DNA of 38,452 nucleotides from Candidatus Dadabacteria bacterium (GTDB lineage Bacteria > Desulfobacterota_D > UBA1144 > Nemesobacterales > Nemesobacteraceae), in the NCBI GenBank assembly GCA_026706695.1, contig JAPOYE010000017.1, forward strand, positions 1 through 38,452, written 5' to 3'. The position numbers were made by a program, and so were the translations under genes. Every line of letters starts with the position of its first letter. Position 1 is the stretch's first letter. Below the pieces are notes generated by a model. That model made no database searches, was not told where the DNA came from, and saw nothing but the letters and a program-made list of their open reading frames with translations. Positions 2,309-33,774 of this stretch are shown here, one piece after another.

Positions 2309-5005
2309 ATGAGAGCTTCCACAAAGATGGTTTCCGCGGCAAAAAACAGAAGCGGACCAATGTTTTTTATATGCGCGCTGGCATTGCTTATTTTCTTCTC
2401 CGGTACAGTTCCCCTTGGCGCGCACGAGGCTGAAGGACATGTTGAGGGCTATAATGTCGAGGAGCATCCTTACACCACGACCGCCAGCGACGTCGATCCT
2501 GCGGACAGGGAAAGCGTTTACAACTTTCTCCTGCATGTGAGGGCCCACTTTAAGGATCCTCCCAGCCTTAACATACTCACAGCACTGAAGGAGCTGTCGT
2601 CGACGGAAGGTGGGGACTGGAGAAACGACACAACTTACCTTATACGGGTGAATGATTTTATACGAGCGAATGACAGAGCCAAGGTGATTTATCACGCATA
2701 CTATCCTGTGACGCAAGACGGAAGCCTGGACGGTTCAAGCGTCGTGCGGAATCTTGTCAAGGTTGCGAACGAAAAGGAAGAAGGAGGCTGCGTTCCGTAC
2801 ACTCTTGACGGGGCGGACAGGTGGGCTTGCGCGGCTAAATTCAGGTCCGTGGGGTATAATCCCGCAACCAACGCTGTCTGGATCGTGGGTTTTCACCATG
2901 ATTTCGAAGAAGTGTCTTTCGCCAAGAACACATGTCCCTACTACGTTCCCGGGACCAGTGCCATTGACGTAAAGGATACCAAGACCCTTAAGAAGTTTGT
3001 AGACGAATTCGCGGAACACTACAGGATGCAGAGAGAAATCGTGGGCGAGGGAATTACGATTGTGCAAAGGCACTGCTGGAGAGTGCTGCCCTGGAAATAC
3101 GGTTCTATCTACCTGTTTATGGTATCTCATCCCAGCAACCGCGTGATTTTTAATGCAAATTCTCCGACGATTGAAGGCAGGAATATTTATGCTGAAGACG
3201 AAAACGGCTGCGTGGTCACGGAAGAGATAGACAGGGTAGTGGCGGGAGAAAAACAACAGTGCAAGAGTTTGGGGTACCTGAGCGAGGATGACAAGAAGGA
3301 AGCCTTTTTTGAATATCTCTGGGATGACCCGAACGTAGAGGGTGACGAAATCGACATCTATACCGAGTGTCCGAATGGTCCGCTTACCTGCACCCCGGGC
3401 AGGTCACACAAGGTGGGCTATGTTACAACAATTGAGTCTTCACATGGAGAAGGTGAGACGCGTGTCGTAGGTTCCGGATTTTATCCCGGGACGCGGGAGG
3501 ACCGGGATGATGGTGACGGGTGCGCTATTGCAGGGGCCGGGCATAAAGTTCAGGGAGCCGTACTCAATCTGTTTTTGATAATCTCCGTACTGTTTTCCGC
3601 AGTTTGGGCAGGAAACCGCTACAGGGAGAGACGGACAGTTGGAAAAAAAGAAGGAGCCGGGAGAAGCGTGTTTACAAGCCTTTTCGTGAGCGCATTAGCA
3701 TTGCTGGTTCTGTTCTCATGGGGAAGCAGCGCGGTTGCACACGAGGTGGGGGGGCATACCTATACCACTACTGCGGGAGAGGTTGACGAGGCGGACGAGG
3801 TAGACATGAAGGAATTCTTGCTGCACGCGAAGGCTCACTGGGCGGGCATTGAAACTTCCAGTGAGAACATAAAGTTCGAACAGAGCCTGACTGAGGAGGG
3901 GAGTGATTGGAATAGCGGCACCGTATACCTGATGGCGATAACTGAGGAGGGGACGATTCTTGTTCACGGGGAAGACCGGAGTGTGCAGAACGGGACATTG
4001 CTTCACTACAGGACAAACGAGTTCGGGGAACGGGAGAGCTTTCTTCACGAGGAAGTACAGGGACTTGTTGACGCGGCAAAGGGAGATGAGGAGGGGGGTT
4101 GCGTTAGATACGGTCACGAGGAAGAGGGAGAAGAGGATCATGGTATGAGGGTGGCGTGTGCGGTCAAGTTCAAACATCCCGTGTGGAACGCGAACAGCGA
4201 AAGCAACCTCATTCTGATAGCGGGATATCACCACGATCATGAGGAGCATGAAGATACGGAGATAAGTTTTGCCGGTATACAATGTCCGTACTTTGCGGAG
4301 GTAAGGAACGAATCACCTTTCTTCTTCCAGGGGATAAGCGCCAACGAGGTTGTGGACAACGAAACGCTAAAGGAGTTCGTAGACCAGTTTGCTATCCACT
4401 TTGAGGAGCAGGTGAGCTTGGCCGGGAGGGATTTGGCTGGGTTAGCCGTTATTCGTAACTGCTGGAGGGTGTTGCCGTGGAAGTATGAGGATAGCGGCAC
4501 CTACATTTTTATAATGACAGAAGACAAGCTAGTGTTTTTCAACGGGTTGGACCCCGCGCTTGAGAACGGCACTTTGAATCCGGAAGATGAAAATGGTTGC
4601 CTAATCGGGGATGAGGTGGTGAATGTGGCGCTTGAAGGTCCGGACGCGAGGCAATGCAAGGACTTGGGATTGCTGCCGGAGAGTTCCGAGGGTTTTATAG
4701 AGTATCTGTGGAACGATCCATTGAATCCGGATGACGATATAGACGTATTTACGGAGTGTCCGAACGGTCCGCGCACGTGTTCTCCCGGGACAACGCCAAA
4801 GGTGAGTTATCTTGTGTCTGTAGATTTTTTGGGACAGAAATTTATAATCGGTTCCGGGTATCATCCTAGGAGCGGTGGAGATGATGGCGGCGGGTGTGCC
4901 GTTGCGGGGAGTGGCAGCGGGGTCAAGGGGGCGGTGTTCGGTCTGTTTTTGGTGGTATCGGTATTGTTCTCAGTGGTTTTTTGGAGAAACCGTTCTGCTA
5001 GATAA
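2309..5005 (+). CDS. Exported tandem Cache-like protein; fusion of two paralogous secreted units
   Basis: The 898 residues are two homologous halves, 1-450 and about 454-898. Each half has a signal peptide (hydrophobic cores 17-32 and 456-471, both followed by AHE..GH), about 360 extracytoplasmic residues, and a C-terminal tail: Asp/Gly-rich stretch, Gly-Cys (C405, C863), hydrophobic span, then Arg/Asn. Nine cysteines match one for one between halves: 161/598, 174/617, 209/659, 256/718, 301/764, 318/783, 354/817, 361/824, 405/863. Shared blocks include CWRVLPWKY, DENGC, ECPNGP and a GFHHD/GYHHD motif. The order of strands, the GxxxxPxxxG-like segments and the ending GSGFYP/GSGYHP resemble two sCache-type ligand-binding domains per half. 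No kinase, chemotaxis or enzyme domain is attached, so function is unknown. Ribosome site AAGGAG is at 2297-2302. A possible internal start at 3668 is listed separately. Confidence 0.75.
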   Translation: MRASTKMVSAAKNRSGPMFFICALALLIFFSGTVPLGAHEAEGHVEGYNVEEHPYTTTASDVDPADRESVYNFLLHVRAHFKDPPSLNILTALKELSSTEGGDWRNDTTYLIRVNDFIRANDRAKVIYHAYYPVTQDGSLDGSSVVRNLVKVANEKEEGGCVPYTLDGADRWACAAKFRSVGYNPATNAVWIVGFHHDFEEVSFAKNTCPYYVPGTSAIDVKDTKTLKKFVDEFAEHYRMQREIVGEGITIVQRHCWRVLPWKYGSIYLFMVSHPSNRVIFNANSPTIEGRNIYAEDENGCVVTEEIDRVVAGEKQQCKSLGYLSEDDKKEAFFEYLWDDPNVEGDEIDIYTECPNGPLTCTPGRSHKVGYVTTIESSHGEGETRVVGSGFYPGTREDRDDGDGCAIAGAGHKVQGAVLNLFLIISVLFSAVWAGNRYRERRTVGKKEGAGRSVFTSLFVSALALLVLFSWGSSAVAHEVGGHTYTTTAGEVDEADEVDMKEFLLHAKAHWAGIETSSENIKFEQSLTEEGSDWNSGTVYLMAITEEGTILVHGEDRSVQNGTLLHYRTNEFGERESFLHEEVQGLVDAAKGDEEGGCVRYGHEEEGEEDHGMRVACAVKFKHPVWNANSESNLILIAGYHHDHEEHEDTEISFAGIQCPYFAEVRNESPFFFQGISANEVVDNETLKEFVDQFAIHFEEQVSLAGRDLAGLAVIRNCWRVLPWKYEDSGTYIFIMTEDKLVFFNGLDPALENGTLNPEDENGCLIGDEVVNVALEGPDARQCKDLGLLPESSEGFIEYLWNDPLNPDDDIDVFTECPNGPRTCSPGTTPKVSYLVSVDFLGQKFIIGSGYHPRSGGDDGGGCAVAGSGSGVKGAVFGLFLVVSVLFSVVFWRNRSAR
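3651..3670 (+). promoter_or_regulatory. Possible internal ribosome site and GTG restart
   Basis: Inside the large gene, AAGGAG at 3651-3656 is followed 11 bases later by an in-frame GTG at 3668 (Val454). From there the reading frame begins MFTSLFVSALALL, an ordinary signal peptide, and covers exactly the second unit. This looks like the relic, or still working, translation start of a formerly separate second gene. Confidence 0.45.
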
Positions 5006-5153: not shown

Positions 5154-5636
5154 TTACCGTTCCGTACTCTTGCCCATGTCGGCTTTCTGCCTGACCCTGC
5201 GTAATCTGGGTTCTATAATCTTGCCCCTGCTCACCGTTAAGCCGTGTTCCGACAGGCACTTCTTGGCAAGGCGGAACACTCCTTCCGTTATTTGATGTCT
5301 CAGCAGAAAGTGGCGGAACTTGCAAATAGTACTCTCGTCCGGAATTCTCTGCATTGACACGCCGGCAAAGCGGCGCATGGACTCAATGTCATAAAGGCTT
5401 TCTTCCATTGCCGGGTCTGACAGACCGTACCATTGTTGCATCAGGTAAATTCGCAGCATAACCTTGGGCGGAACAGGTCGGCGTCCCCTGCGCGACTTCG
5501 GATATTTGCTTAGTATGGGTTCAAGCAGTGGTTCCCACGGCAGGATTTTGTCCATTTTTTCAAGGAACCGCTGTCTGCGGGTTATTTTCTTTTTGTTTTT
5601 GTAGGCTAAATCAGAAAAACTGGGCTTGTTCGGCAT
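5154..5636 (-). pseudogene. Truncated IS5-family transposase
   Basis: The first ~140 residues match the N-terminal part of IS5-family DDE transposases: the basic start MPNKPSFSDLAYKNKKK, LPWEPLLEPI, RRGRRPVPPKVMLRIYLMQQWYGLSDPAMEESLYD, and PDESTICKFRHFL. In full enzymes (about 310-340 residues) this is followed by the first catalytic Asp and the rest of the RNase H-like domain. Here the reading turns into an Arg-rich tail and stops at 160 residues, so no catalytic core remains and none was found in the 148 bases beyond. I chose ATG 5636 rather than an upstream GTG at 5651 because IS5 proteins usually begin this way. No terminal inverted repeats could be paired. It cannot transpose by itself. 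Confidence 0.8.
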
Positions 5637-5697
5637 TGCCCCCGTCCTCACTTCTCCATAATACTATACCACAGCGGCTCGATTGAGATTTATCGCA

Positions 5698-31608: not shown

Positions 31609-33105
31609 TTAATAGCCTTGTATTAACAGCAGCTGTCTTGAAGTTTTGCTGATGCTGTATTTGTGTCTGTCTCCCGATTCTGCCGACAACCTGTCAATAT
31701 CAAGAGACCTGAGCAGTTGAACCGTGATCGGTCTTTTGCTGTCCCAGAAAATAAAAGAGCTGTAAAAGTCGTTCGCGGTATCCGAGTTAAGCAGGTCCGC
31801 CAGCCGGTGAGATTCCTCGGGGCTGTCCATGGCGATGAAATTTACGGTGTCATCGAATACAACGGCCTTGCCCTCATGAGGGCCTACGACAAAGAACTCA
31901 AGTTTTTTGTAAAGGGCTGCAATGGCCACTTTCCAATTACTGAAGCTGTAATCTCCAACCCCGAAAACGGAGAATCTCGGTTTGTCTCTGTATATTGAGC
32001 TCGTTCTCCGGTCCAGAAGTTCGCCGTACTTTTTCAGATATTCCATGGTCTTGGGGGCTGCTTTCGCCAGATATCCTGTTTCCTGACCGATTCTTGTTTG
32101 CGGAACCAGCATGAATTTCTCGGGATCTCTTCTGTTCGCCAGACCGGAACCCTTCAGCAAAGGGTAAAGGCACATGTCTTCAAGCTCGTTTATCTCGCCA
32201 AGACCGTTTACGTATAAACCGTCCCCTGTTTTTTTGAGTTCCATAACTTTTGAGCAGTCATGCTTGATCCCGGTTCTCCATTTGTAATACTGGCTGTTTT
32301 CAATCAGGTGCCTTGTTTTTTCGTAACCGTGAATGTCGGCAACAAGAAAGCCTTCGCGAAGCCCTATTGTCTGAATTGGACTGTCTGCTTCCATATGGCT
32401 GTACACCTTGCAGTCCTCGCGTCTTCTGTCGGAGGAAGTCACGGTCAGCAGGCATGCGTCGGCAGAAATCCGGAAATGAAGTTTTGAGTCAATAAGATGC
32501 ATGGTAGCGACTTCCATTTTTCTCTCGTTTTTCCACGCGTTCAGCAGGACCTTTCTCGCAACCGAAGTTTTACATAACATTGCTACTGTTCCCCGCTTTT
32601 TCTGAAGCCATTCAATCATCCGGTCTATCATCCACTCCGATATGTCGAAGTTGCTTTTTCCGGTTAAGGCATCAAGTCCCTTCATTTTTTTGTGGTTGAG
32701 TTTTACGGGCAGATTTTCGCTTCCCAACTGGCCAAGCTGCGAGTTGGTGATCCATGGCGGATTTCCTATTACCAGAATGGGTTCCGGCAGATCGCACAGT
32801 TCGGATTCCCAGTCCTTGGAGAAAAAATCAGCTGTCTCAATTCTGACCTGAGTGGATGTGCCATAATCCGGGAGCCTGTTTCTCAGCAGCTCAATGTAAT
32901 TTTCGTCAATATCGCAGGCATATCCCTCCCTTGCTTCGTCAAACACGTTCAGTGCTTCTATAAAAAAAGTGCCTGCTCCGCATGTCGGTTCGATTACGCT
33001 TTTTGGCGCCACACTGTTCTTCTTCAGGAATCCGCAGACTTGGCGGGCCAGATCTTCGGGCGTCTGGAAGTCCCCGTGTTCAGCCTTCTTCGTGTTTTTG
33101 GTCAT
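31609..33105 (-). CDS. Type II DNA adenine-N6 methyltransferase
   Basis: The 498 residues show motif X (DFQTP, 12-16), the SAM-binding motif I (IEPTCGAGTF, 38-47) and the catalytic motif IV NPPW (115-118), in the order of gamma-class adenine-N6 methyltransferases. The C-terminal half (from about 250) should recognise the target sequence, which I cannot predict. The gene follows a likely restriction endonuclease gene on the same strand by six bases, so together they form a restriction-modification system protecting host DNA. The pair is bounded by recJ and an SPFH gene and is probably an acquired island. Confidence 0.9.
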   Translation of the reverse strand: MTKNTKKAEHGDFQTPEDLARQVCGFLKKNSVAPKSVIEPTCGAGTFFIEALNVFDEAREGYACDIDENYIELLRNRLPDYGTSTQVRIETADFFSKDWESELCDLPEPILVIGNPPWITNSQLGQLGSENLPVKLNHKKMKGLDALTGKSNFDISEWMIDRMIEWLQKKRGTVAMLCKTSVARKVLLNAWKNERKMEVATMHLIDSKLHFRISADACLLTVTSSDRRREDCKVYSHMEADSPIQTIGLREGFLVADIHGYEKTRHLIENSQYYKWRTGIKHDCSKVMELKKTGDGLYVNGLGEINELEDMCLYPLLKGSGLANRRDPEKFMLVPQTRIGQETGYLAKAAPKTMEYLKKYGELLDRRTSSIYRDKPRFSVFGVGDYSFSNWKVAIAALYKKLEFFVVGPHEGKAVVFDDTVNFIAMDSPEESHRLADLLNSDTANDFYSSFIFWDSKRPITVQLLRSLDIDRLSAESGDRHKYSISKTSRQLLLIQGY

Positions 33106-33111
33106 TCTCTT

Positions 33112-33774
33112 CTACTTCGATAAGTTATGTACTCTTTTCGCGTTTCCGGCCGCTTCAATTATGCGGCCGTACTGCAGTCTCCATTGCAGGGCATTTGAGA
33201 TGGTCAGATAGCCTTGTTCAGGCTTTTTCTTAAGAAGTTCCTCCGCGATTCTGTTTGCCTGTATATCGTCAACGGGCAGATTTCTCTCACACATAAATGC
33301 TATGAGATCATCGCTGTTTCCATCATTTTCCAGTATCTGACGTAATCCTCTGGTGGTCTGGTAATCACCAGTAACTTCTTTTTCCACGAAAATTGTGTGC
33401 AGAAAATTCAGGCGACCGGTTTTGGTTTTGTGGTTGTCTGTTTTTTCGTAAACGAAAACCAGAAGAGAGTATCCCAGACCGTAAATTTTTTGTTTTGCCG
33501 ACCTGTAAGGACAGGACGATTGAGGCTGTTTTATGCTTGTAACCTTTATGTCAATTTCAAGCTCCGGGAAATCGATTCCTTTTGCCGAACTTCCGAATCT
33601 GAATTCATATTTTTCAGCGAGATATTCCCTGAATCTGCGTTCAATAAAAGTACCTACCGCTTTGCCGTCGGTTATTCCATAAATCTCAGAAAAAGTTATT
33701 CTTGAGTGGAGCGGAGAAAAGGCTCTTGCTCCTTGCAGAAACCTTTTTCTTGTGAGTTTCGGTTTTTGACACAA
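33112..33774 (-). CDS. Putative type II restriction endonuclease
   Basis: The 220-residue protein lies just upstream of the methyltransferase. Around 45-77 it has an Glu in FIERRFREYL, then GIDFP (D68) and LEIDIK (E73, D75, K77), which fits a PD-(D/E)XK nuclease core. No named enzyme family was recognised, so the call rests on this motif and on the neighbour. The only available start is TTG at 33774; no ribosome site precedes it and a TATAAT lies two bases upstream. Low expression would favour methylation before cutting. It could also be longer at the front if a nonstandard start is used. Confidence 0.65.
   Translation of the reverse strand: MCQKPKLTRKRFLQGARAFSPLHSRITFSEIYGITDGKAVGTFIERRFREYLAEKYEFRFGSSAKGIDFPELEIDIKVTSIKQPQSSCPYRSAKQKIYGLGYSLLVFVYEKTDNHKTKTGRLNFLHTIFVEKEVTGDYQTTRGLRQILENDGNSDDLIAFMCERNLPVDDIQANRIAEELLKKKPEQGYLTISNALQWRLQYGRIIEAAGNAKRVHNLSK

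Follow-up and report, generated by a model that had tools for sequence, protein, structure and literature searches.

As a rule, each bacterial surface protein is made from a reading frame of its own. FbcH of Bradyrhizobium japonicum, the cytochrome b/c1 precursor, is a single frame that gives rise to two exported or membrane proteins by means of an internal signal peptide and signal peptidase. The myxosortase MrtX, a CPBP glutamic intramembrane protease, cleaves the MYXO-CTERM of TraA both in Myxococcus xanthus and in E. coli (PMC11980579). Another M. xanthus protein, MXAN_5598, has an internal MYXO-CTERM and may stem from a gene fusion; the parts beside its internal tag, an adhesin on the one hand and an outer-membrane barrel with OmpA domains on the other, are described as unrelated (PMC11980579). 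Searches of the literature on internal signal peptides and bacterial polyproteins found no direct precedent beyond MXAN_5598, and a search of 5.39 million open-access papers for the phrase 'bacterial polyprotein' and its variants returned no relevant paper.

The window analysed here, a stretch of 38,452 nucleotides, comes from a 1.87 Mb genome (96% complete) of one Candidatus Dadabacteria genus, and contains a single uninterrupted frame of 898 codons (positions 2309-5005, + strand) that encodes two exported Cache units in tandem. We refer to this complete two-unit precursor, and to relatives built in the same way, as doubles. The locus is like the MYXO-CTERM/MrtX system of M. xanthus in having a tripartite Cys tail on exported surface proteins and a candidate CPBP protease (PMC11980579), and differs from it in that the tail does not exceed the cut-offs for MYXO-CTERM and JDVT-CTERM and the protease falls short of those for Mrt. 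In contrast to MXAN_5598, it is homologous complete exported units that flank the internal tag of the 898-residue double, and the internal form has been conserved in paralogues as well as between genomes. FbcH is similar in that an internal signal peptide lies inside a two-protein precursor, but it joins two different respiratory subunits without a sorting tail, whereas the double joins homologous surface proteins with a tail on each. The literature searched offers no example of homologous units combined with an internal sorting tail and an internal signal peptide and maintained, as here, at four loci.

From comparison of the sequences, we consider that the double is probably (at about 0.7) a polyprotein-like exported precursor which would be cut into two surface-anchored tandem-Cache proteins. 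With the conserved precursor it can be tested whether a 'C-terminal' sorting tag is functional within a chain, whether an internal tag is open to processing by a CPBP protease, and why two sensor-like units remain joined. A possibly new Cys-type sorting tail is also indicated, as is a large family of tailed Cache proteins within a single Dadabacteria genus.

Anatomy of the double and its Cache units

The frame opens with an N-terminal signal peptide (residues 1-38, positions 2309-2422, +), for which the sequence predicts a signal peptidase I cut at A38|H39; in the nine doubles described below its hydropathy is 1.76 or more, and A38 and H39 are invariant. Next come the unit 1 ectodomain (residues 39-399, 2423-3505, +), with two Cache-type halves and eight Cys, and an internal sorting tail (3506-3628, +) made up of DGDGCAIAG, which includes Cys405, a membrane span at about 412-435 and the first basic residues. 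A basic loop (residues 436-453, 3614-3667, +), predicted from its net charge to be cytoplasmic, leads into an internal signal peptide (residues 454-477, 3668-3739, +), recognised by its hydropathy and by an invariant A-x-A followed by H, with a predicted cut at A477|H478. The unit 2 ectodomain (residues 478-857, 3740-4879, +) again has two Cache-type halves and eight Cys, and the protein ends in a C-terminal sorting tail (4880-5002, +) of DDGGGCAVAG, which includes Cys863, a membrane span and a basic end, identified by the tail profile and by comparison with MYXO-CTERM TIGR03901. Read across the junction, the chain passes from DGDGCAIAG through the span and NRYRERRTVGKKEGAGRS to a signal peptide with AVA|H at its end, the tail taking up residues 400-435, the basic loop 436-453 and the signal peptide 454-477.

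An earlier note, made from the letters of this DNA alone, had described two complete exported units fused in one frame, and this is borne out. The halves (residues 1-453 and 454-898) align with 43% identity, and both contain a signal peptide, an ectodomain and a Gly-Cys tail with its membrane span. The succession of tail, basic stretch and second signal peptide with no stop between them is as the note had claimed, and the nine matching cysteines that it had counted in each half are real (161/598, 174/617, 209/659, 256/718, 301/764, 318/783, 354/817, 361/824 and 405/863); eight in each unit lie in the fold and the ninth (405/863) is the tail Cys.

Both halves match dCache_2/sCache_2 in Pfam, the whole protein scoring 40.5 bits (cut-off 26.5). 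No other Pfam domain was above cut-off in the 898 residues, and a typical cytoplasmic signalling output domain is absent. Among 45 units of the family, 41 match dCache_2 and 31 match sCache_2. By sequence, a profile of the units matches chemoreceptor Cache domains of solved structure in the PDB (2QHK, 4EXO, 4K08 and 5G4Y). The best PDB fold matches found by Foldseek for a structure model of unit 2 (mean pLDDT 82.7) are the sCache chemoreceptor domains 4EXO (E 1.4e-5) and 2QHK (E 3.0e-5). A full-length AlphaFold model from nine rows reached a pLDDT of 59.7 and a pTM of 0.38 and was too poor for use. Taken together, the Pfam, PDB sequence and fold matches indicate that a unit looks like two Cache-type halves without an output domain. 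The likeness to the sCache_2/dCache_2 sensor domains of chemoreceptors such as 4EXO and 2QHK is thus one of both sequence and fold, but kinase, chemotaxis and cyclase outputs are missing here and the domains end instead in a surface sorting tail, which makes signalling through their own chain impossible.

The Gly-Cys tail and a candidate protease

The tail is tripartite, with a Cys motif, a span and a basic end; the G-C is invariant in 20 tails and an R stands near the end in at least 90% of them. The terminal tail of the 898-residue double (Cys863) scores 19.7 bits against MYXO-CTERM TIGR03901 (cut-off 20, E 8e-4), and the best score against JDVT-CTERM, 20.5 bits (cut-off 27), was obtained with a paralogue tail. 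The Gly-Cys tails do not reach the curated NCBIfam cut-offs for MYXO-CTERM or JDVT-CTERM, but they resemble this Cys-containing CTERM class.

Most genomes of the genus have 8-20 copies of the Gly-Cys tail, and one has 2. Leucine-rich-repeat proteins and further exported non-Cache proteins also terminate in it, and the tail is therefore a portable module. Judged by eye, the Gly-Cys-tailed proteins L217, L218, L220, L221 and L223 comprise leucine-rich-repeat, metalloprotease-like and other exported proteins. The Gly-Cys-tailed proteins of the genus possibly represent an undescribed surface proteome. Among 86 tail-bearing ORFs in the loci fetched, an internal tail is found only in the nine doubles. 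Seven single-unit Cache relatives (L016, L018, L019, L020, L032, L110 and L111) have a terminal membrane span without the Gly-Cys motif; six of them form one clade (L032 was not in the tree), and the group is a natural control for the sorting tail.

Exactly one CPBP protein is encoded in the source genome, by a gene around G000:C16:69901-70185. It carries the EE, H and HxxxN motifs, and the NCBIfam models that it matches best are without exception myxosortases (MrtP, E 6e-22; Mrt_core, E 2e-20), at scores under the curated cut-offs. CPBP proteins were found in 12 of the 14 genomes of the genus and not in G008 and G011, which are incomplete MAGs with the Cache family present. They also occur in relatives without the Cache family, and most relatives of the order have them, so that presence or absence of CPBP does not single out the family. 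Exosortase (PEP-CTERM) and rhombosortase (GlyGly-CTERM) were considered as processing enzymes, and neither was found in the source genome: exosortase PF09721 was not detected in the 96% complete sequence, and the single rhomboid had no NCBIfam match at E <= 1e-5 and so does not match a rhombosortase model. One secretin is encoded, which is compatible with a type II-like outer-membrane step.

Conservation of the junction and its likely processing

The junction signals are conserved in all nine doubles. G404-C405-A406 is invariant while identity around it falls to about 42-48%, and A475-x-A477-H478 is likewise invariant. The internal span and signal core are hydrophobic in each of the nine (KD15 2.18-2.85; h-region 2.2-2.9), and the homologous stretch of the junction loop is basic throughout (net charge +4 to +9). 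Five pairs give dN/dS values of 0.14-0.50 over the junction, indicating that it is under constraint. The profile that located the internal tail at 3506-3628 itself includes that tail; an independent profile was therefore built from 49 terminal tails of single-unit relatives, with no double included. Against this second profile the nine internal tails score 38.9-75.5 bits and 200 shuffles of each score at most 7.6; for the 898-residue double the values are 72.4 bits and, for 200 shuffles of the same segment, at most 5.7, so that its pattern lies well outside what chance would give. A neutral-drift null for hydrophobicity is mildly rejected per sequence (P 0.15 and 0.07), a result that is weak alone, and the case for the internal signals being live rests on the invariant Cys, the AxA motifs and the tail profile. 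One frame with complete processing signals between its parts, the arrangement expected of a polyprotein, is present in 9/9 doubles. According to the earlier note, long relatives that all carried a degraded internal signal peptide and tail would have spoken against its reading; no such decay was seen in any of the nine.

The fused arrangement is old and maintained, and for this reason probably works like a bacterial polyprotein. The N-terminal signal peptide would lead unit 1 out until transfer is halted at the internal Gly-Cys tail; the basic loop would be left on the cytoplasmic side, and export would resume with unit 2 at the internal signal peptide. Cleavage by signal peptidase I would follow A477, and the single CPBP (myxosortase-like) intramembrane protease would process both Gly-Cys tails, most probably at C405 and C863. 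This would yield two separate tandem-Cache proteins, anchored at the surface and made in a fixed 1:1 ratio, that bind small extracellular molecules. We infer the stop of transfer at the tail, the restart of export, the cleavages and their enzyme, and in addition lipid anchoring, ligand binding and a benefit from fixed stoichiometry. The proposal of the earlier note that a long form would cross the membrane twice at the junction and be cut there into two products is thus the best-supported reading, given that both signals are intact in all nine doubles. The wider proposition, that the doubles are a maintained family of bacterial surface polyproteins which a CPBP/myxosortase-type protease and signal peptidase process into 1:1 pairs of Cache receptors, may be right or wrong with even odds.

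Conserved hydrophobicity and a basic loop would be explained equally well if the precursor were an uncleaved hairpin, in which the internal tail and signal peptide form two spans and hold both Cache units on one membrane-tethered molecule, and the full-length model has helices at 414-437 and 452-469, although at low confidence. A hairpin, however, leaves unexplained both the invariant GC-A and A-x-A|H of the nine doubles and the likeness of the internal tails to terminal tails of the cleavable type, and we regard it as unlikely.

The earlier note had also raised the possibility that one mRNA makes both the long form and a short unit 2 protein. The ribosome site and in-frame GTG that it reported at the start of the second unit are present, and in the 898-residue double they are well placed, a Shine-Dalgarno-like GAAGGAG (3650-3656, +) lying 11 nt upstream of GTG454 (3668-3670, +); L002 and L010 have an in-frame ATG at the junction. 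As a conserved feature, the internal start fails: four of the nine doubles (L011, L012, L013 and L022) have no in-frame ATG, GTG or TTG between the internal span and the signal-peptide core, and GAAGGAG is changed to GAAGGGG in L009, the closest orthologue (91% identical). This lack of conservation makes a long and a short product unlikely as a conserved purpose, and the starts that remain (GTG454 and the ATG of L002 and L010) are best interpreted as remnants of a second gene that was once separate, which accounts for them without internal initiation. Two products from one mRNA are possible for the 898-residue gene by itself; as an explanation of the arrangement they seem to us quite improbable. 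A promoter and terminator scan gave no promoter-like match at the junction, and hence no support for a second promoter there; matches elsewhere were within about 1.5 sd of shuffles.

Spread and history of the family

The tailed Cache family was found in 14/14 searched genomes of the genus and in 0/47 genomes outside it. The comparison rests on metagenome-assembled genomes. Most of its members are single units of about 380-540 aa. The nine doubles are distributed over six genomes, with three in the source genome (G000), two in G009 and one each in G002, G010, G011 and G012, and over four chromosomal loci. The rho-ftsY locus holds the 898-residue gene of G000 and a double of G009, a yggS-hemK type locus those of G000 (C92), G010 (C39) and G011, a third locus those of G002, G009 (C33) and G012, and a fourth the remaining double of G000 (C16). 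The 898-residue protein shares about 42-48% identity with non-orthologous doubles. A tree of 53 rows places every unit of a double in one clade (99/99) and recovers the unit 2s as a clade of their own (100/99); a single clade of unit 1s is not rejected (p-AU 0.30). The grouping of all units of doubles in one clade fits a single old fusion, and the simplest history is one fusion that was afterwards copied and moved. Two independent fusions are possible, though the unit 1s are not rejected as a single clade.

Recent loss of a stop codon in a tandem duplicate, which would leave the internal signals still undecayed, was one of the readings offered in the earlier note. The raw material for it exists, separate tandem single-unit genes with stops being common in these genomes (e.g. 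G000:C34 and G002:C10), but it is refuted by a fusion common to nine doubles at four loci in six genomes, whose units fall in one clade and whose copies share about 42-48% identity, and we leave it hardly any probability. A stop codon hidden by an assembly or sequencing error, conceivable for a metagenome-assembled genome, is refuted in turn, with a negligible chance of being correct, by the fused architecture in six genomes, the frame being kept in 9/9 doubles and open, with no stop, through the junction of the closest orthologue (G009:C5).

In two genomes the yggS-hemK locus carries a gene with one unit only, which the tree nests among the unit 1s. The gene of G013 is intact, has a unit-1 body with a unit-2-like tail, and is a collapsed double; this collapse to one tailed unit indicates that a unit with its tail can stand alone. 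The gene of G009 at this locus has a frameshift at the tail. A broken double is found at G010:C1.

Within L013 (G011:C14) the stretch NGDNVGELIVNALKDKGEHEGEFVEYLWDDPTDEVPATNEEGIAPGDVPKLSYVV is identical in unit 1 and unit 2, which suggests recent gene conversion. The orthologues L011 (G012:C19) and L022 (G009:C33) are nearly identical, 11 of their 15 nucleotide changes fall at the junction, and a local conversion tract there is likely.

In the window, rho (481-1806) lies upstream of the double gene, and a transposase-like fragment and then the ftsY region lie downstream. The fragment (5154-5651, -) is N-terminal and 165 aa long. Rho was located in 12 relatives; in 11 of them a transposase-like copy of 70-88% identity is its neighbour (the stretch was not reached in G009), and the fragment is therefore an old resident. 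The double gene adjoins the fragment only in G000 and G009. Further along the window, two adjacent genes (31609-33105, -, and 33112-33774, -) resemble, by eye only, an NPPW-type DNA methyltransferase and a possible restriction partner.

Outside the genus, a C-terminal Cache half without a tail, often in tandem, occurs in MAGs of Latescibacterota, Gemmatimonadetes and Acidobacteria (L047-L057). These MAGs carry a similar series of isolate names, and the pattern may reflect exchange between members of one community.
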